Virus record (IMG/VR): IMGVR_UViG_3300017971_000521
Location: 1 to 37,197 of that record
Length of the DNA stretch: 37,197 nt
Strand: one strand, 5' to 3'
Source of the DNA: a virus
This document shows positions 3,405-37,197 of this stretch, piece after piece. Below the pieces are notes generated by a model. It was not told where the DNA came from. It searched no databases and saw nothing but the letters and a program-made list of their open reading frames with translations. Both the position numbers and the translations under genes were made by a program. Each line of letters starts with the position of its first letter. Position 1 is the first letter of the stretch.

Positions 3405-3442
3405 TTATATCTCCTAATGTGCGGTTAAGATAATATAATATT

Positions 3443-3506
3443 ATAGTTAAACAACAAAGTAAATATTTTAATATGTTAACATAAATGTAATTATAATGGA
3501 TTCTAT
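3443..3506. repeat. Duplicated upstream region, copy A, with palindromic operator
   Basis: This 64-bp stretch matches 3874-3937 at about 60 of 64 positions. Each copy lies upstream of one leftward cassette gene and contains the perfect 12-bp palindrome TATGTTAACATA (here 3472-3483), a likely operator. On the minus strand the copy ends in AACTATAAT-like sequence, consistent with a promoter for the gene at 3183-3404. Confidence 0.8.
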
Positions 3507-3541
3507 GTATGTAAAAATATATAGATTGCATTTATGTACTT

Positions 3542-3847
3542 TTATTTAGCTTCTTCAGATTCCCGGTTTAAATCTAAATCATCGCTTCCGCTTGATCTTA
3601 TTTCGGGGCAAGCTTCAGCTATAAGTCTCCAACCAATAGCTGTTCTTATTAGTTCTTTAGGACTTCTTTCCTGAAGTAAATGCTTATATTTAATTAGATT
3701 TTCTGGGATTATTTTAGGATATTTACAGTTATTTTGAATCCCTAATATAGTAGATACGATACTCATATCTTTACTAATTAAATAATTACATTCTTCAAGG
3801 TAATCTAGAACTATAGATTCATATTCATCTGATATTGAGTATTTCAT
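3542..3847 (-). CDS. Cassette gene B: small protein with shared C-terminal tail
   Basis: A 101-aa helical protein with ribosome site AAAAGGATACAAT before ATG. The core (YLEECNYLISKDMSIVSTIL, then NLIKYKHLLQERSPKELIR, then IGWR) resembles the 102-aa protein at 34659-34967 (YMLKCEKLLYDDIQILSPLL, then VLNKYRKIISSRDKKDLIK, then IGWW), so the two are probable paralogues. The tail RSSGSDDLDLNRES is instead shared with the neighbour at 3183-3404. The gene therefore looks chimeric: a core from one family joined to a recurring tail. Function unknown. Confidence 0.65.
   Translation of the reverse strand: MKYSISDEYESIVLDYLEECNYLISKDMSIVSTILGIQNNCKYPKIIPENLIKYKHLLQERSPKELIRTAIGWRLIAEACPEIRSSGSDDLDLNRESEEAK
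3558..3603. repeat. Conserved 3'-end repeat, copy B
   Basis: Partner of 3199-3244 (44/46 identical). It lies at the 3' end of the 101-aa gene and encodes the same acidic tail. The offset between the 3'-end copies is 359 bp while that of the upstream copies is 431 bp, showing that the two cassette cores differ in length. Confidence 0.85.
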
Positions 3848-3873
3848 ATTGTATCCTTTTAATAAAGAATGCC

Positions 3874-3937
3874 ATAGTTAATTAACAAAGTAAATACTTT
3901 AATATGTTAACATAAATGTAATTATGATGGATTCTAT
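3874..3937. repeat. Duplicated upstream region, copy B, with palindromic operator
   Basis: Partner of 3443-3506, carrying the same palindrome TATGTTAACATA at 3903-3914. It lies 26 bases upstream of the 101-aa gene, on the side where its leftward promoter should be. It also marks the left edge of the 562-base spacer (3848-4409). Confidence 0.8.
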
Positions 3938-3999
3938 TAACAAATTATTTGTTACTTTAAGATTTTAGAAAGTTATGTTTATATTAAGATTATATTATT

Positions 4000-4040
4000 T
4001 TGATCGATTCTTTTAGCAAAAGTATAATGTGTATATACAC
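4000..4040 (+). promoter_or_regulatory. Strong sigma-70-type promoter with palindromic operator
   Basis: TTGATC (4000-4005), a 17-base spacer and TATAAT (4023-4028) form a near-consensus rightward promoter. The next base starts a perfect 12-bp palindrome, GTGTATATACAC (4029-4040), where transcription would begin, so a bound repressor should block it. The core TGTATATACA recurs in front of the outer-membrane protein gene (32566-32579) and, with one mismatch, at 4348-4357. The promoter would drive an RNA of more than 370 bases before the first gene at 4410. Confidence 0.6.
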
Positions 4041-4076
4041 GCGAAACTACACAATATATAGTGTAAGGTCGTTATA

Positions 4077-4090
4077 ACTTTCCGGAAAGT
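4077..4090. promoter_or_regulatory. 14-bp perfect palindrome (operator candidate)
   Basis: ACTTTCCGGAAAGT reads the same on both strands. GAAAGTT half-site-like words recur nearby at about 3968, 4102 and 4179. It lies about 40-50 bases downstream of the predicted start of the 4000 promoter, so it could be a roadblock operator or a site for another nearby promoter. The spacer also holds a tight CCCC-T-GGGG palindrome (4195-4203) and a short GC-rich stretch near 4207-4240, for which I see no clear role. Confidence 0.5.
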
Positions 4091-4259
4091 GTACCTTATT
4101 GAGAAAGTTTATTTCGGCAGATACGTTAAATCAATAACTTAGATGGTGCTAGCGATTTATACCAATCATTATTTATAGGAAAGTTTAATTTGACCCCTGG
4201 GGTATTTTGGAGGGTAGGGCGCGGGTTTTGTGCGCGTGTCATTATTTATCATACTCCAT

Positions 4260-4307
4260 CTACAAAAATCTAAAATTCAAGGTTTAAATATATACAGTTA
4301 AATAACT
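4260..4307 (+). repeat. 48-bp leader repeat, copy 1 (no gene behind it)
   Basis: This copy differs from copy 3 (4705-4752) at only 2 of 48 positions. Copies 2 and 3 each sit directly before a small membrane-protein gene. Copy 1 is followed only by about 50 bases of AT-rich DNA with the dyad TTAAGT-GTAT-ACTTAA (4328-4343) and then by copy 2. It may be the leftover of a lost cassette. Confidence 0.8.
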
Positions 4308-4360
4308 ATATAGATTATTATCTATATTTAAGTGTATACTTAAGACATGTATATACTTTT

Positions 4361-4398
4361 CTGAAATTCGAGGTTTAAATATATACAGTTAAATAACT
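4361..4398 (+). repeat. Leader repeat, copy 2 (shortened)
   Basis: About 38 bp matching the second half of copies 1 and 3 and ending AGTTAAATAACT. With the next base it forms CAGTTA-AA-TAACTG (4386-4399), arms of 6 bp around two A. This dyad abuts the GGGG ribosome-site region of the gene at 4410, so it could bind a regulator or act as an RNA hairpin. Confidence 0.75.
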
Positions 4399-4409
4399 GG
4401 GGTATAATA

Positions 4410-4700
4410 GTGACACACTTGTTCGGCTTACTTTTTGTTGCGATAGGGTTATTAGGTTCTGTTGTGCTTATAATAAAACGTATAAATTTGCTTGAACGTT
4501 TAATCTGCAAATATATGGACATAACAGAGGATAAATTAAATAAGGTTTTTGAAATTAGGCCCACATTATATGAAACAGAACATCTGAGGAGAGAATTAAA
4601 AAGTATTAATTTTAAGATTAATATGCTTGAAGGGATGATAAACGATAAAACTTCAGTAGATGACGGGAAAGGTTCATCTTCTTTAATGGATTGGGATTAA
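4410..4700 (+). CDS. Cassette membrane protein 1
   Basis: A 96-aa protein starting with GTG behind CTGGGGTATAATA. Residues about 4-23 form one membrane helix (FGLLFVAIGLLGSVVLIIK). The rest is charged and helical (about 30-75), with an acidic, serine-rich end. The first residues and their DNA match the gene at 4765 (both H-x-FGLLFV-x-x-G), while the 3' parts differ. A holin-like or exclusion-type inner-membrane role is possible but unproven. It is probably expressed from the promoter at 4000. Confidence 0.65.
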   Translation: MTHLFGLLFVAIGLLGSVVLIIKRINLLERLICKYMDITEDKLNKVFEIRPTLYETEHLRRELKSINFKINMLEGMINDKTSVDDGKGSSSLMDWD

Positions 4701-4704
4701 TCAA

Positions 4705-4752
4705 CTACAAAAATCTAAAATTCACAGTTTAAATATATACAGTTAAATAACT
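4705..4752 (+). repeat. 48-bp leader repeat, copy 3
   Basis: 46/48 identical to copy 1, and placed 4 bases after the stop of the gene at 4410-4700. It ends in AGTTAAATAACT and continues into GGGGGGAT, the ribosome site of the next gene. The complete copy includes the CAGTTA-AA-TAACTG dyad. Confidence 0.85.
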
Positions 4753-4764
4753 GGGGGGATAATA

Positions 4765-4947
4765 ATGATACACTCGTTCGGTTTACTTTTTGTTTCAGTG
4801 GGGTTCGCCCTTGCTATTATGTTCATAACAAAACGCATGAATTTAATTGAATGCTTACTTTATAAACATATCGAAGCATTAGAGATCATAGAAAAAATAA
4901 TATATGAAGAGTATAAAGATAATTCCAACAAAGATGCCCGGCAATAA
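4765..4947 (+). CDS. Cassette membrane protein 2
   Basis: A 60-aa protein with a strong G-rich ribosome site (CTGGGGGGATAATA before ATG). One membrane helix lies at about residues 4-23 (FGLLFVSVGFALAIMFITK), followed by a short acidic helical tail. It is a paralogue of the gene at 4410 in its first 35 residues and diverges after that. Being preceded by its own leader copy, it looks like a stand-alone cassette. Confidence 0.65.
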   Translation: MIHSFGLLFVSVGFALAIMFITKRMNLIECLLYKHIEALEIIEKIIYEEYKDNSNKDARQ

Positions 4948-4956
4948 AATTAAAAA

Positions 4957-5733
4957 TTATTTAATAATAATCTCCTGAATGAATACTTCATCACCCTGAA
5001 AGGGTAAATATTTAGAGTTTGTTGAAAGGTCAGCAGGAGTAAATTCATTAGATGGTTGAGCATAACTTCCTACTCCTATTTCTCTAAATACTGTAACCAC
5101 AAGTTCGCTACAGAAAATAGAACTTAAATCCTCTTTATTATCTGAAAAGTAACTAACTATTTTATTTAATATAGGGATACTATACCACCATTTAGGGGCA
5201 TCTATAGCGGATTTGAATAGTTCACTAAGATTTCTTTCATAAGATACTCCTATATAACGTTGAACAGTTTGTTCTAATTTTAATAATTGTTTTTTGGTTA
5301 GAGGTCTAGTTAATCTTCTTAAGGCAACAGTTCCATCATAAGTATTTAATATATCTTCAAGAAAGATGGTTCTTACTTTACCAGATAGGGAATAACCCAC
5401 GCCAGACTTTAATAGAGAGCTTGTAGCTTCGAACAGGCATAGTTGCCCATTCCATTCAACAATCATCCCCACGTGCGTCCATTTGCTTCCTGTGAAGGTT
5501 TTAATTATTCTGCCGTACCAATCTGAGTTTGAGAATAATAATATATCCCCTGGTTTTAAATTTAAATCATGTAAAGATTGTTGGGTAAATGTCATTTTGA
5601 TAACTCTCTGTTGTGATTGTAATAAAAAAAGGAATGAATATGTATTTGGCTTAACACCCAATCCTATAGCTTCAAAACATATACTAAATATTAATAGAGT
5701 CAATTTTAGTTTAGTTAGATAGCTTTTAGGCAT
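4957..5733 (-). CDS. Papain-fold cysteine hydrolase (YiiX/C92-like)
   Basis: The frame encodes up to 258 aa. The core has the permuted NlpC/P60 pattern: LKPGDILLF (60-67), WTHVGMIVEW with H87, FEATSS with E102, and FCSELVV with C208, matching the Cys-His pair of YiiX/C92 hydrolases. Such enzymes cleave amide or ester bonds in cell-wall peptides or lipids. The first 46 residues are hydrophobic and could be a signal or anchor, but no ribosome site precedes the ATG at 5733. The ATG at 5595 (MTFTQQ) has AGAGAG upstream and is an equally likely start. It is the only gene that the leftward promoter near 6100 could drive. A cargo gene or an extra lysis enzyme are both possible. Confidence 0.7.
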   Translation of the reverse strand: MPKSYLTKLKLTLLIFSICFEAIGLGVKPNTYSFLFLLQSQQRVIKMTFTQQSLHDLNLKPGDILLFSNSDWYGRIIKTFTGSKWTHVGMIVEWNGQLCLFEATSSLLKSGVGYSLSGKVRTIFLEDILNTYDGTVALRRLTRPLTKKQLLKLEQTVQRYIGVSYERNLSELFKSAIDAPKWWYSIPILNKIVSYFSDNKEDLSSIFCSELVVTVFREIGVGSYAQPSNEFTPADLSTNSKYLPFQGDEVFIQEIIIK

Positions 5734-13247: not shown

Positions 13248-14111
13248 ATGACTGCTACAATTAGTACAGCATTTATTAATCAATTTTCAGACAACTTATA
13301 TAGTTTAGTAGAACAAAAAGGTTCTAAGCTTCGCCCAGCCATGAAAATAGAAATGGCTAAAGGTGAAAAACATTTCTTTGATAGATTAGGTTCTTTTACT
13401 GCAACCGAAATTACTTCCCGTTTAGAGGATACTGTAATGCAAGACCCTGCACACAGCAGACGTATGGCTACAGTTGCAAGATATGGAGCAACAACATATT
13501 TGGACAATATAGATAAATTAAAGCTGCTTATAGACCCAACTAGTGATTATGCTATGAAATTAGCAAGAGGCCAAGGCAGAAATTTAGATGATGTTATTTT
13601 AGCTGCAATGCTAGGAACTGCTGCTACTGGACAAACAGGAAGTGGTTCACAGGCTTTTGATGCTAATCAACAAATAGCTCATGGTTCTACAGGATTTTCT
13701 GTAGCTAAATTTAATCAAGCTTTACGTTTAATGGAATCAAACGAGGTTGATGTTGATGGCATTAGAATATATTTAGCAGCAGGAGCAAGAGCTGTTGAAG
13801 ATTTATTTGGTGAAAATGATATCGTAAGTTTTGATTTCCAAAATACTAAAGCTTTATCAGATGGCAAGCTTCCAATGTTTCGTGGTGTAAATATTATAAG
13901 AACTCAACGCATTCCTGATCAAACATCTGGTTCTGTTTATCGTTGCTTATTGTTTACTGAAGACACAATGAAGGTTGCTATGAACCAAGATATTGAGGTT
14001 AAAGTTGGCGAGCGCATGGATAAAAACTGGGCATTACAAATTTCAACCTACATGCAATATGGTGCAGTACGCATGGAAGAGGAACAAGTAGTAGATATTT
14101 TATATCAATAA
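13248..14111 (+). CDS. Major capsid protein
   Basis: A 287-aa protein that forms the head shell. The order and sequence fit the short podovirus capsid family that begins with FINQFSDNLYSLVEQKGSKL, continues with FDRLGS and a TRYDDT-like region (SRLEDTVMQDPAHSRRM), and ends GAVRMEEEQVVDILY. Codon use appears less AT-biased than in neighbours, as expected for a highly expressed gene. The ribosome site AAGGAGAG is very strong. Flanking hairpins (13096-13200 and 14124-14146) may isolate its mRNA. Confidence 0.88.
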   Translation: MTATISTAFINQFSDNLYSLVEQKGSKLRPAMKIEMAKGEKHFFDRLGSFTATEITSRLEDTVMQDPAHSRRMATVARYGATTYLDNIDKLKLLIDPTSDYAMKLARGQGRNLDDVILAAMLGTAATGQTGSGSQAFDANQQIAHGSTGFSVAKFNQALRLMESNEVDVDGIRIYLAAGARAVEDLFGENDIVSFDFQNTKALSDGKLPMFRGVNIIRTQRIPDQTSGSVYRCLLFTEDTMKVAMNQDIEVKVGERMDKNWALQISTYMQYGAVRMEEEQVVDILYQ

Positions 14112-14726: not shown

Positions 14727-14768
14727 CCCGCCACGCCTCTTAATAATGCGAACCAAGGCGGGGTTTTT
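14727..14768 (+). terminator. Rho-independent terminator
   Basis: CCCGCC (14727-14732) pairs with GGCGGG (14757-14762). An inner CGC/GCG pair can form, and after one more G there is a run of five T (14764-14768). This is the clearest terminator in the rightward direction and lies between the decoration-like gene and the head-fibre gene. Some read-through must occur, because no new promoter is evident downstream. Confidence 0.75.
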
Positions 14769-14779
14769 AAGGAGATAAA

Positions 14780-15802
14780 ATGGCTTTGGAAAGAGAAATA
14801 AATGTAGATCATCTTGAGATAGATGGTACAGAAATAACTGCTACTGCTTCTGAAATAAATGCATTAGATGGATTAACTGCATCTTATGATGAATTAAATA
14901 TTTTAGATGGAGTAACAGCTACAGCAACAGAAATTAATTATTTAGATATAGCCACTTTAGGAACAGGAGCAGCTTCTAAAGCAGTAGTTTTAGATGCAGG
15001 TGAAGACTATACGTGGCCTACTGCTGGTAGATTAACCTATGGCGGAACAGCGATTACAGCTACTGGAGCAGAAGTTAATTATTTAGATATAGCAACTTTA
15101 GGCACAGGAGCAGCTTCTAAAGCTGTAGTGTTAGATGCAGGAGAAGATTATACATGGCCTGCAAGTGGTGTTTTAACCTATGGTGGAACAGGTATTACAG
15201 CTACGGGAGCAGAAATTAATTATTTAGATATAGCAACCTTAGGAACAGGAGCTGCCTCTAAAGCAGTAGTATTAGATGCAGGGGAAGACTATACGTGGCC
15301 AGCTACTGGGGTTTTAACCTATGGTGGCGGAGCAATAAATGCAACAGGTGCAGAAATAACTAGAGCTTGTGATCTTTCAGCCAGATTAGTTTCTTTAACT
15401 GCTACAGCATCTATTACTGAAGCAGCACATGAAGGTAGAGATATGTATATTACTGGAACTGCTTTAGCTACATATACATTACCAGAAGCAACAGGAAGTG
15501 GAGGCAGATATAGATTTATTATCGGAGAAGTAAATACCAATAATACAGTTATTACAACCGCTGACGCTACTAACTGTAGTTTTTATGGTAGTGTAAATAT
15601 TTTAGATAAAGACGCAGCAGCACAAGCCGCTTATGCGCCAGCAGCTACAGATGAATTAATTACTTTAAACGGAACTACTACTGGAGGACAGATAGGAGAT
15701 TTTATAGAAGTATTAGATATTGCTACTGATAAGTGGATGGTGTTTGGACAATTAACAGTTCCAACAGGATCTAATCCTGCAACTCCTTTTAGTGGAGCAT
15801 AA
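14780..15802 (+). CDS. Head-fibre-like protein with three 47-aa repeats
   Basis: A 340-aa protein. The N-terminus has ASEINALDGLT and ATEINYLD motifs typical of phage head-fibre and fibre-shaft proteins. Three tandem repeats of 47 aa (141 bp) follow at about residues 51-191, each with NYLDIATLGTGAASKAVVLD, then AGEDYTWP and LTYGG. The DNA of the repeats is also very similar, indicating recent duplication. The C-terminal part (about 195-340) is beta-rich and probably binds the outside. Ribosome site AAGGAGATAAA. It likely projects from the head. Confidence 0.65.
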   Translation: MALEREINVDHLEIDGTEITATASEINALDGLTASYDELNILDGVTATATEINYLDIATLGTGAASKAVVLDAGEDYTWPTAGRLTYGGTAITATGAEVNYLDIATLGTGAASKAVVLDAGEDYTWPASGVLTYGGTGITATGAEINYLDIATLGTGAASKAVVLDAGEDYTWPATGVLTYGGGAINATGAEITRACDLSARLVSLTATASITEAAHEGRDMYITGTALATYTLPEATGSGGRYRFIIGEVNTNNTVITTADATNCSFYGSVNILDKDAAAQAAYAPAATDELITLNGTTTGGQIGDFIEVLDIATDKWMVFGQLTVPTGSNPATPFSGA

Positions 15803-30193: not shown

Positions 30194-30784
30194 TTAATCT
30201 TTCCAAAAATCTTTAAATCTAGTTGAAGATATTTCCGTATAACGTACAGTATGTTGAATATTTCTATGTCCTAAATAATATTGAATGCTACGAGTATCTT
30301 GCCCATCATTTGCTAATTTAAATCCAGTTGAATGTCTTAACATATGAGGATGAACTGATATATCAAGTTCTGCTTGCTTACCAGCTCGCGCTACAATTTT
30401 TCTAAATGTTGAATCTGTTATTGGAGTTTGACGCTCGGTCATAAAAACATATTCACTATCAGGATATTTACGCTTTACTGCACGTAGAGCTCTTAAATCA
30501 GGCCCGAAAAGAGGATGAGTACTAGCTACTCCATTCTTAATACGTGTAACATGTAATAATCCTTGTTGTAAATCTATCTGTGACCACTTTAATGCTATTA
30601 ATTCTGATACTCTAAGCCCATGACGATATGCAATTAAAATCATAGCGGCATCACGTTGTCCATATCTACCATTTTGTTTTGCAGCAGCAATTAATTTATC
30701 AACTTCCTTAGGAGTTAAATATTCTCGAGTACGATACTCTTTATTTTTAACTCTTTTAGGTTTTATATTATTTTTTAGCATCAT
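30194..30784 (-). CDS. Tyrosine recombinase, FimB/FimE type
   Basis: I place the start at ATG 30784 (a second ATG follows at 30781), because AAGGCGG lies just upstream; the frame extends to a GTG at 30802 with a poorly placed ribosome site. The 196-aa protein consists of the catalytic domain only, as in FimB and FimE (about 200 aa). In numbering from 30802 the catalytic residues are R64 (HGLRVSEL), H153 and R156 (HPHMLRHSTG), H179 (LGHRNIQHT) and Y188 (VRYTE). It could integrate the phage or invert a DNA segment. Codon use is less AT-rich than in neighbouring genes, suggesting separate acquisition. Confidence 0.9.
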   Translation of the reverse strand: MMLKNNIKPKRVKNKEYRTREYLTPKEVDKLIAAAKQNGRYGQRDAAMILIAYRHGLRVSELIALKWSQIDLQQGLLHVTRIKNGVASTHPLFGPDLRALRAVKRKYPDSEYVFMTERQTPITDSTFRKIVARAGKQAELDISVHPHMLRHSTGFKLANDGQDTRSIQYYLGHRNIQHTVRYTEISSTRFKDFWKD

Positions 30785-31010
30785 TACCGCCTTTATGTTC
30801 ACTTCCTGTATAAGTTAACAATAATATTACCCAGAAGATTAAACCTACTACAGGGGCATTAGCACTACTAGCACCACATACAATGAATAAAGTTATGAGT
30901 ATCCACTTCCCTACTTCACCACAACCAGAGTTCATCTCCTGCTGGTTTTGTTTAGCGTCATCACTATCATCCTGAATACCCATTATCTCGTTGTAGTCTC
31001 TCTTACTCAT
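30768..31010 (-). CDS. Small membrane protein (holin candidate)
   Basis: An 80-aa protein with ribosome site GGAGGTG. The N-terminus is hydrophilic and acidic (about 1-30), followed by two hydrophobic segments at about 34-51 (GKWILITLFIVCGASSANA) and 53-68 (VVGLIFWVILLLTY), and a short charged tail. Its position in the operon that ends with the endolysin makes it a holin candidate. The end overlaps the recombinase start region by up to 17 bases. No family recognised. Confidence 0.6.
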   Translation of the reverse strand: MSKRDYNEIMGIQDDSDDAKQNQQEMNSGCGEVGKWILITLFIVCGASSANAPVVGLIFWVILLLTYTGSEHKGGNDAKK

Positions 31011-33935: not shown

Positions 33936-34646
33936 TTATTTGCTCCATCCAGAAGTAATAGGCTTATTATCAGGAAAATTAGTTATGTTTGATTCTGTTT
34001 GATTTATTTTTAAATCTAAAGCATTTATTAAAAAATCAATATAAATAAATATAGTTTTATCTGAATTAGTTTTAATAGTACTGTTTAAGAGTAAAACGCA
34101 AGAACCTATAAGCATATTTAAAAACTTTTCTGTTTTATCTTTATAAGATTTTTCTCCTAATTCATGAAATTCTTTATTACACCAACCTATTATTAATTCC
34201 ATGATAGGATTAAAATCATTATATAAAAAATTATTCTGTTTTTTTTCTATATCTAAAAGCAATGAAGAAACAAATCTACCTAAACTTTGTGGTTCATCTG
34301 CATAACTTTTTATTCTTATATCAGTTTTATAAAAATCTTTTATTTCTTTAGTTAATTCTTCTCTGGGAAGACCTAAAAATAATTTAATAAAAGATTGTAA
34401 TCTAAGTTTATTATTTTTACTTTCTGTTTCTATTTTAATTAAATCTAATTTTAATTTAGAAAATCTTATTTTTAATACATCTTGTATCATTGATTCTTTA
34501 GTTTTAAAATAATAATAAACATTTCCTAAAGGAACTTCTGCAAGATATGCTATATCAGATAAAGACATACCGTTAATTCCTCTTTCCGCTAATAATATAT
34601 CAGTTGCTGTTAATAATCTTTCTCTTTTATTATTTCTATTCGACAC
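33936..34646 (-). CDS. TetR-family transcription regulator
   Basis: I choose GTG 34646 because AGGAG lies about 5 bases upstream; the frame opens at another GTG (34652) that is too close. The 236-aa protein has the TetR N-terminal DNA-binding domain: LLTATDILLAERG, then GMSLSDIAYLAEVPLGNVYY and YFKTKESM (about 26-53). The C-terminal ligand/dimer domain is helical and unassigned. TetR proteins usually bind palindromes as dimers and release on ligand binding. One in a phage regulator position is unusual and makes it a candidate for the TGTATATACA or TATGTTAACATA palindromes. Confidence 0.88.
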   Translation of the reverse strand: MSNRNNKRERLLTATDILLAERGINGMSLSDIAYLAEVPLGNVYYYFKTKESMIQDVLKIRFSKLKLDLIKIETESKNNKLRLQSFIKLFLGLPREELTKEIKDFYKTDIRIKSYADEPQSLGRFVSSLLLDIEKKQNNFLYNDFNPIMELIIGWCNKEFHELGEKSYKDKTEKFLNMLIGSCVLLLNSTIKTNSDKTIFIYIDFLINALDLKINQTESNITNFPDNKPITSGWSK

Positions 34647-34658
34647 GAACACTCCTGC

Positions 34659-34969: not shown

Positions 34970-35299
34970 TTAATGCCCTGTAAAATGAATTAAACTTTCA
35001 TCTACTGTGTTTAAAAGGTTAATAAATTTTGGTTTATCTAAAGCTATTTCTATATTTTCTAATGTAGACCCATATAAAAAATTTATTAATTGTATTTGCC
35101 TTAAATATTCTGTAAAAATAAATTTTGTATCAGAGACTTTATGCTCTCCAATTGCAATAGATAAGGCACTATTATACGCTTGTCCATGAAGCATTCCTAT
35201 CTTATATGGATCTGATGTATAATACTTTAGACCTTTTATTGACCAAGTATCTGTATTTTTAGATGAAAATCGTTTTACTTCTGATTTATTTGTTACCAT
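34970..35299 (-). CDS. Hypothetical protein
   Basis: A 109-aa protein with an N-terminal polar part and a helical end (TLENIEIALDKPKFINLLNT). AGGGA lies upstream of the ATG. No family recognised. It is the first gene after the polymerase; the 70-base AT-rich gap before it may hold a promoter for the regulator operon, but no clear hexamers are seen. Only 2 bases separate it from the 102-aa gene. Confidence 0.55.
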   Translation of the reverse strand: MVTNKSEVKRFSSKNTDTWSIKGLKYYTSDPYKIGMLHGQAYNSALSIAIGEHKVSDTKFIFTEYLRQIQLINFLYGSTLENIEIALDKPKFINLLNTVDESLIHFTGH

Positions 35300-35369: not shown

Positions 35370-36386
35370 TTATCTCGATTTAATAACATTAGAATGAGGT
35401 TCAATCCAATATATTTTACTCCATTCTGTTTTACTTTTATCCCAACAATTATTAAATCCAGCTTCACATGCAAACCTAGATTCAGGAAATATTGATTGCA
35501 TAGACCTAAGCATTATAGATGCTTTCTCTTCTATTAAATCATACATTTGAGGACATTCTTTAACTTCACTTAGTATTTCATCATGAATCATAGCTTGAGG
35601 AATAAGTAAATCAGTATCACCAAATCTTTCCATTACTTTTATAGTAGCTTTCTTAGCCCCTATAGCAGATCCAGATTGCATTAATATACCATTGCAGAAT
35701 TGAGTATATGTACACCAATCTCTTTTAAATCCTTCTATTTCAAAAGAATACATTGGCTCAGTTTTCCATTCCCCAAACTCATTTTTAATTTGCTTTGTTT
35801 TTCCTGTTAAAAAATCTTTATGACCTTCATTTAAAAAATATTTTAAATCAGGATATAAAGAAAACATTTCATCTTTTAATGCAACTAGCTCATCATATAC
35901 TAATTCAAATAAATTCTTTGCTACTTGTCGAATTCTAACGGGATATCCTTTTTTCTTTAGAATCATCATTTTACCTTGCAAATATTCTTCTTTCTTTGCT
36001 TTAGATAAAACTTTTAATTTAGGAAATATCTCATATCGAGATAATACTATTCTCATAGTGTCGTATCCTATGCCCCCAGGAAAACCGAGATTTATAGGTT
36101 TAGCTAATTGTCTATATTGTTTATAAAGATTTTCTTTTTTATGTTGAACAAAAGATTCATATGTTTCATTAACCCCTTCTTTCATATTCATAAATCTATA
36201 TGCCAGCATGCTATGAGGGTCTATAGGCTCATATCCTTGATTTAAGATATCAAGCATATTTCTTTTGCCTGTTATTTTATATAATTGATAAGCAGTACAA
36301 GCTAATTCTAATCCGGAATAATCTATAGTACATATCTTATAACCTGGTCTTGGAATAAAACAATTTCTTATATCCCAAGTAATCAT
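35370..36386 (-). CDS. DNA polymerase A family, polymerase (palm/fingers) part
   Basis: A 338-aa protein holding the catalytic half of a family A DNA polymerase. Motif A is CTIDYSGLELA with D22. Motif B is RQLAKPINLGFPGGIGYDT (R92, K96) in the GFPGG form known from phage polymerases. Motif C is MIHDEILSE with H268, D269 and E270. It begins MITWDIRNCFIPRPGYK, where the continuous protein would run on from the QQMPR segment of the upstream gene. Its ATG overlaps the upstream stop (ATGA), in a different frame. It is therefore a split polymerase, a frameshifted gene or an assembly error. Confidence 0.88.
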   Translation of the reverse strand: MITWDIRNCFIPRPGYKICTIDYSGLELACTAYQLYKITGKRNMLDILNQGYEPIDPHSMLAYRFMNMKEGVNETYESFVQHKKENLYKQYRQLAKPINLGFPGGIGYDTMRIVLSRYEIFPKLKVLSKAKKEEYLQGKMMILKKKGYPVRIRQVAKNLFELVYDELVALKDEMFSLYPDLKYFLNEGHKDFLTGKTKQIKNEFGEWKTEPMYSFEIEGFKRDWCTYTQFCNGILMQSGSAIGAKKATIKVMERFGDTDLLIPQAMIHDEILSEVKECPQMYDLIEEKASIMLRSMQSIFPESRFACEAGFNNCWDKSKTEWSKIYWIEPHSNVIKSR

Positions 36387-37197
36387 ATAATCTCTCTAAT
36401 TTCTCTAGGCATTTGTTGGATATTTACAGAAGCAAAATTATCAGATGTAAAACTAGAAGTTCTTCCTGATGACACAACAGCATTATATTGTGTACGTATG
36501 TAAGGAGTAGCTTTTTTTAATCGAGAAGTAAATGCTGTTAAAACTTTCTCTACACTCATGATATTTAAAAAAGAATTAAGGAGTGAATATAAATAATCAT
36601 TTTTTGATATTAATGTTAAATAATGGTTTAAATCCTCATTAGAAGTCGATATAGAGCCTTTTGCAGTATATCTTATATTAGGTAGTTTCTTTTTTAATAA
36701 AGCCTTAAAGGCTTTCATATTGCGTTTTAATCCTTTTTTATCTTGGATTAATATTTCATGTTTTTGAAGTATTTCTTTATGAACTGATATTTGATTTTTT
36801 AGTTCCTCTTCTATTGTGGATACTCTGGTCTGTTCTATAAGTATTCCGGTAGAACCCATTCTATTTAAATAATAATCTGCTGAAACTGATAAACTTATAT
36901 CTATATCGGCCTCTAAAAGTTGGTTCTTATAAATATCATAAGCATATATTGAATCATATTTAGCATAGTTTATCGCTTCTTTTGGCCAATCACATAGAGG
37001 TACATTTTCTAATTCATGATATCTTAAACGCCAAGCATTAGGATTTTTTTTATCTTCCGAAATATCTATATTAAAATATTTAAGCACTAATGCTGCTAAA
37101 TTAAAAATACCTATAGGATGTTTTCTTACACAATCTAACAATTGTTCATATATTTTGGTACATATAATTTTTTTATTATTTAATTTTTTATATAAAA
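36383..37197 (-). CDS. DNA polymerase A family, exonuclease and thumb part (runs off right edge)
   Basis: The frame is open to the window edge, so the N-terminus is missing; at least 270 residues are visible. The 3'-5' exonuclease ends with the DEDDy motif III YAKYDS, following FNLAALVLKYFNID. The thumb region follows, then VVSSGRTSS and NIQQMPR, the conserved segment that leads into the palm. The frame stops right after PREIREII, before motif A, and the catalytic part continues as a separate gene overlapping by 4 bases. The exonuclease motif I, if present, lies beyond the edge. Confidence 0.85.
   Translation of the reverse strand, partial: LYKKLNNKKIICTKIYEQLLDCVRKHPIGIFNLAALVLKYFNIDISEDKKNPNAWRLRYHELENVPLCDWPKEAINYAKYDSIYAYDIYKNQLLEADIDISLSVSADYYLNRMGSTGILIEQTRVSTIEEELKNQISVHKEILQKHEILIQDKKGLKRNMKAFKALLKKKLPNIRYTAKGSISTSNEDLNHYLTLISKNDYLYSLLNSFLNIMSVEKVLTAFTSRLKKATPYIRTQYNAVVSSGRTSSFTSDNFASVNIQQMPREIREII

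Follow-up and report, generated by a model that had tools for sequence, protein, structure and literature searches.

Phage DNA polymerases of family A encoded in more than one gene have been described before, and the closest described case is that of the OM43 phages MEP401 and MEP402 (Zobellviridae, OP830906). In these phages the polymerase is divided over ORF13 and ORF15, which flank the small ORF14; the authors weighed an intron and could not demonstrate one (PMC10580990). LUZ24-like phages also carry a family A polymerase in two genes, named 'DNA polymerase part I and II', but unlike in the locus described here the break falls between the exonuclease (171 aa) and the polymerase (546 aa), and several ORFs lie in between (PMC3890496). 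Polymerases in pieces are further known from unrelated families, namely the split, intein-containing PolB of MIJ3 (PMC6892783) and the split minimal PolIII of jumbo phages, which is encoded by distant genes (PMC7824862). In Vibrio phage D69 (L003, OZ195729.1) the family A polymerase is also in several fragments: a 181-aa ORF separates the exonuclease from the thumb, and the polymerase locus has no Rfam intron match. We rejected this phage as a precedent because its gene, interrupted at that point and again within motif B, is broken in another way. The polymerases of Roseobacter CRP-345 and CRP-738, Pelagibacter HTVC103P, Bacillus Goe3 and Microbacterium Endor were examined as candidate split cases and proved to be encoded by one gene each; those of Thermus P23-45, Pseudanabaena PA-SR01 and ctsHD2 are single genes as well.

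Layout of the polymerase locus

The window, i.e. the whole stretch of DNA analysed here, is a complete, linear IMG/VR virus record of 37,197 bases, in which a family A DNA polymerase is encoded in two frames on the minus strand at the right end. The N part (36383-37195, minus strand) is open at the contig edge, with 270 aa seen, and comprises the second half of a 3'-5' exonuclease, the thumb, and the SGRTSS and QQMPR segments. It is 61% identical to residues 76-342 of the intact relative L008, and its Pfam match to PF01612 (E 8e-4) is below the curated cut-off. The C part (35370-36386, minus strand) is 338 aa long, starts with ATG, begins MITWDIRNCFIPRPGYKICTIDYSGLEL and comprises the palm and fingers with motifs A, B and C; it is 63% identical to residues 344-679 of L008. 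It matches PF00476 (DNA_pol_A) with an E-value of 2.7e-7 and 30.3 bits, below the curated 34.3, and the PHROGs DNA polymerase family phrog_17 with an E-value of 2e-16. The N frame ends in NIQQMPREIREII (in longer form VNIQQMPREIREII) followed by a stop, and this TGA overlaps the ATG of the C part by 4 nt in the sequence ATGA (36383-36386, minus strand).

The motifs of family A, i.e. A (DYSxxEL), B (R-x3-K) and C (HDE), are all present in order, as DYSGLEL (36303-36323, with D22 and E27), RQLAKPINLGFPGG (36072-36113) and IHDEI (35574-35588) on the minus strand. The QQ-P and TGR-like segments that precede motif A are seen as NIQQMPR and SGRTSS at the end of the N part, of which the QQMPR segment (36404-36418, minus strand) is the last conserved block. 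The initial annotation had described two overlapping frames with an ATGA joint and a -1 frame change, all catalytic motifs preserved in the two parts, and a break point located after the QQ-P segment and before motif A. All of this is borne out, with each conserved residue present in exactly one of the two products. Of the exonuclease, the window holds the second half (PF01612, and the Y-x3-DS block), while the positions of Exo I and Exo II lie past the contig end; both are present in the nearest relative, L002. An intact 680-aa relative aligns with the window only from its own residue 76, so that the true start of the N gene lies off the contig, unseen, and the TTG at 37141 is merely the first start codon past the edge. 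A search of the window with an intact relative recovered the two known pieces only; neither the window nor the L002 contig holds a second copy of the polymerase.

Several other features of the window deserve mention. A short gene just downstream of the polymerase (34970-35299, minus strand) is conserved in L002 and L008, and the window copy has changed far faster, with 18 unique changes versus 2 in L002 (p 3e-4). A TetR-type regulator (33936-34652, minus strand), which is kept in L002, and a tyrosine integrase (30194-30802, minus strand) indicate that the window phage is probably temperate. A permuted papain-like amidase (Peptidase_C92, YiiX type) is encoded at 4957-5733 on the minus strand. 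An abiF RNA (14727-14763, plus strand; Rfam RF03085, 40.3 bits, gathering score 37), in which a stem of 6 bp closes the conserved loop GCCUCUUAAUAAUGC, sits among virion genes, with the major head protein upstream (13248-14111). For the ORF that follows it (14780-15802), Pfam and PADLOC gave no match, and phrog_30158 is the only hit. That this RNA adjoins a phage structural gene and not an Abi gene may be worth a look.

Relatives and the origin of the breaks

Relatives were collected from IMG/VR and genome contigs, giving about 20 family members (40-71% identity) and about 30 more distant ones, and each was scanned for open frames. All family members except L002 carry exonuclease, QQ-P, motif A and motif C in a single frame of about 650-711 aa; L085 is cut by its own contig end, yet is open over the junction. 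L002 (IMGVR_UViG_3300009009_000007), the nearest relative (identity 71% in the C part and 67% in the N part), comes from another metagenome, and its polymerase is also split. Its N frame continues further and ends in NCFIPRKGTDIL (also quoted as TWDVRNCFIPRKGTDIL) followed by a stop, which is joined via ATGA to a C gene beginning MTNYKLCSIDYSGLEL. The comparison of relatives that had been proposed as a check thus returned a second ATGA-joined split, but at a different site, about 50 nt or 15 residues downstream of the window break, and left the other ~20 polymerases unsplit. In the tree the window and L002 are sisters (support 100/100), with the intact L008 next (100/99); since this nearest kin is intact, the splits arose within the window/L002 clade. 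Judged from these sequences, the clade would either have split its polymerase twice, or once with the break point shifted later. The split genomes are two only, with one sequence each, and no strain-level copies of either junction were found in IMG/VR.

A DNA alignment of six relatives shows what distinguishes the two split genes. Compared with the other five, the window has 8 extra nt between GAA, the last codon of QQMPRE, and TGG, so that the linker (36378-36400, minus strand) measures 23 nt vs. 15 nt in intact relatives; the aligner puts the insertion at 36385-36392, its exact position being ambiguous. In L002 the surplus amounts to 20 nt and lies between GGA (of PRKG) and TATAAA; both insertions stand out as clean gaps. 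As 8 and 20 each equal 2 modulo 3, a -1 shift is needed in either case; in both genomes the ATGA lies within the insert or on its edge, and each conserved residue is found in just one of the two products. The single inserted or deleted base that the initial annotation had held against a genuine split does not fit these data: the window departs from intact relatives by 8 nt, and L002 by 20 nt of its own, so that a one-base slip or a homopolymer error is ruled out as well. Indels do occur in metagenome contigs of AT-rich phages, and an assembly or sequencing error in both contigs could in principle produce such a picture. However, errors of this size (8 and 20 nt) away from any homopolymer are not of the usual kind, the two contigs come from independent data sets, and each error would have had to create an ATGA with the conserved residues kept, making this explanation very improbable.

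To gauge how readily such junctions arise by chance, random sequence of phage base composition was put into the same linker of four intact relatives, success being an ATGA-coupled split with a start before motif A. Such splits resulted from 2.1% of the 8-nt and 3.0% of the 20-nt insertions. These rates make it unlikely that both arose without selection (product ~6e-4 given the lengths, a value that rests on two cases and on the assumption of random insertion). The 8 nt could be read as a tandem copy (GATTATAT GATTACTT, 6/8), but the match is weak (p 0.04 vs. random inserts) and this origin was discarded; the 20 nt of L002 give no sign of a tandem-copy origin. The junctions might alternatively mark where an intron, an intein or a homing element sits or once sat, along the lines suggested for MEP401 and as seen in D69, whose gene is interrupted in motif B. 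Phage polymerase genes are indeed favoured intron sites (PMC10580990, with its references), but at 8 and 20 nt the inserts are shorter than any intron or intein, and there is no Rfam intron match in the window, L002 or MEP401. We therefore consider this the least probable of the explanations; a scar left behind by an element since lost is conceivable, though nothing in the data speaks for it.

To see where the breaks fall in the fold, we used an AlphaFold2 model of intact L008 (mean pLDDT 93.4, pTM 0.91), which matches the structures of Klenow, Bst and T7 polymerase and thus has the Klenow/T7 fold. The window insertion falls in coil 337-348 of the palm, after QQMP, and the L002 insertion in coil 354-357, ahead of the strand (358-365) bearing the aspartate of motif A. 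T7 polymerase has a natural loop insertion near the break site of L002. With both breaks in coils of the L008 model, the two pieces could plausibly rejoin like a single chain.

Translation of the two frames and selection on their products

ATGA overlaps commonly reflect stop-restart coupling, and several tightly overlapping gene pairs are present in the window genome. The C part is preceded, within the linker and 5 nt ahead of its ATG, by the weak to moderate ribosome-binding sequence AGAGAG (-3.5 kcal/mol), a value reached by 23% of random sites; the median energy is -4.05 for starts in the window and -0.3 for random sites, and the C start of L002 has -4.9 with a long spacing. A different possibility is that one fused enzyme is made via programmed -1 frameshifting, transcript slippage or ribosome hopping. 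The overlapping frames would join in register by a -1 shift, and in the window a hop from one ATT to another would likewise bring the product back to the length of its relatives. On the other hand, neither overlap contains an in-frame slippery heptamer (X_XXY_YYZ), the longest single-base run at the overlap is 3 in the window and 4 in L002, and at both overlaps the downstream RNA folds no better than shuffled sequence (z -0.16 and 0.31), with no pseudoknot seen. Moreover, the junction sequences of the window and L002 have no common motif except ATGA. We consider a fused product unlikely, and of the two outcomes originally envisaged, a coupled two-subunit enzyme or a frameshift-made fusion, it is the former that is the best reading, the fusion being without slippery heptamer, long homopolymer or structure.

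A further alternative is that the gene is simply broken, by a recent knock-out or as a rare assembled variant, in a phage or prophage that is decaying or using the host polymerase. The window split is known from a single genome, a distant prophage polymerase (L093) has a plain frame break, and, judging by the integrase, the phage may be temperate and might survive as a defective prophage. Between the window and L002, dN/dS is 0.09 for the N part and 0.14 for the C part, with 0.15 for the neighbouring YqaJ recombinase gene; these values are rough, as synonymous sites are near saturation, and they average over time before the split and are no proof of function after it. Of the columns that are invariant across intact members, the window changes 3 of 87 and L002 1 of 100, while intact members, each left out in turn, change 0-7 of ~100. 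A relative-rate test gave no significant acceleration in the window (N part p 0.25, C part p 0.06), the C part showing a mild excess of 35 unique changes versus 21 in L002. From these patterns, both halves appear to be under long-term purifying selection, and the window polymerase is not visibly decaying, with the proviso that a very recent knock-out would escape these tests. Erosion of conserved columns no greater than in intact relatives, together with two halves that are open over their full length with catalytic residues kept and with ATGA splits in two sister phages from different metagenomes, argues against a broken gene, which we regard as a doubtful explanation.

The break in L093 (IMGVR_UViG_2894385450_000004, 3417-5491) provides a contrast to the window. 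In this family A polymerase of a prophage-like element, a small frameshift within a G-rich run interrupts the gene close to motif C, and the otherwise very similar L095 and L097 are intact, so that a sequencing error or a decayed copy is likely.

We thus favour a real two-polypeptide polymerase of family A, Pol I-like and probably proofreading, which would be expressed by the predicted stop-start coupling. That L002 is split too, at another point, suggests that the polymerase works as two clasping pieces. An 8-nt linker insertion would have moved the second half to another frame and created the ATGA; a ribosome ending the N part at the TGA would restart at the overlapping ATG, and the C part would be made in amounts nearly equal to those of the N part. 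Judging from the L008 model, the exonuclease-thumb-QQMPR piece and the palm-fingers piece may then fold and dock as the one-chain enzyme. The sister L002 would have arrived at the same state via a 20-nt insertion at the next coil downstream. A bolder version, which we put forward only tentatively and think improbable as it stands, is that the clade keeps its replicative polymerase as two separately made subunits under selection, the break point moving along the QQ-P/motif A linker and ATGA coupling being regained. If true, separate subunits would confer something that one chain does not, such as a regulated ratio of proofreading to polymerase, or escape from a host factor or homing endonuclease.

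Implications and comparison with known polymerases

If the halves work together, a Klenow-type palm has been naturally cut between two conserved active-site segments, once among MEP401-like phages and at least twice in the window clade. This would mark the stretch from QQ-P to motif A as a place where family A polymerases can be divided naturally, of use for folding studies and split-polymerase tools. Genome pipelines will overlook or misname such polymerase halves. Finally, sister phages with two break points offer a small-scale natural experiment on how a gene fission becomes established and how its position shifts.

The intact proofreading relatives from uncultivated phages (L008, L016-L031 and others) and Pol I of Thermus phage G20c (7r0k) belong to the same family and have the same motifs in the same order, but in one chain. 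The profile of PHROG 2573 (phage DNA polymerase, 336 positions) starts at the same residue as the window C part, and this family may therefore contain other separate C parts, although it matches intact polymerases too. MEP401 resembles the window most closely, with the exonuclease and N-terminal polymerase in one ORF, motifs A-C in another, and the break between QQ-P and motif A. The MEP401 break reads SPNLQNFDGEIKTLFLSRYGE, stop, MILNADAKALEW, with a longer left side ending in QNFDGEIKTLFLSRYGE and a stop; placed by PHROG coordinates, it corresponds to the site in L002, about 10-15 residues past that of the window. The two systems differ in that cultured MEP401 has a 77-aa ORF between the halves and no ATGA, whereas the window ORFs overlap by 4 nt with no ORF between them. 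The intervening ORF14 (L060, 7276-7509; 77 aa) has no PHROG or Rfam match, and could be a third subunit, a linker protein or a mobile ORF. There is no clear sequence kinship between MEP401 and the window beyond family A, and comparing profiles of MEP401 and A2 was of no help for the C part. The MEP401 and window splits do not share common descent, those of the window and L002 having arisen in their own clade. The arrangement was thus rightly called unusual, but it is not unprecedented, as MEP401 is split at nearly the same place (PMC10580990). A split between QQ-P and motif A is already known from one close precedent, MEP401/402; what is new is the direct ATGA coupling without an intervening ORF, and the presence of two break points in sister phages.
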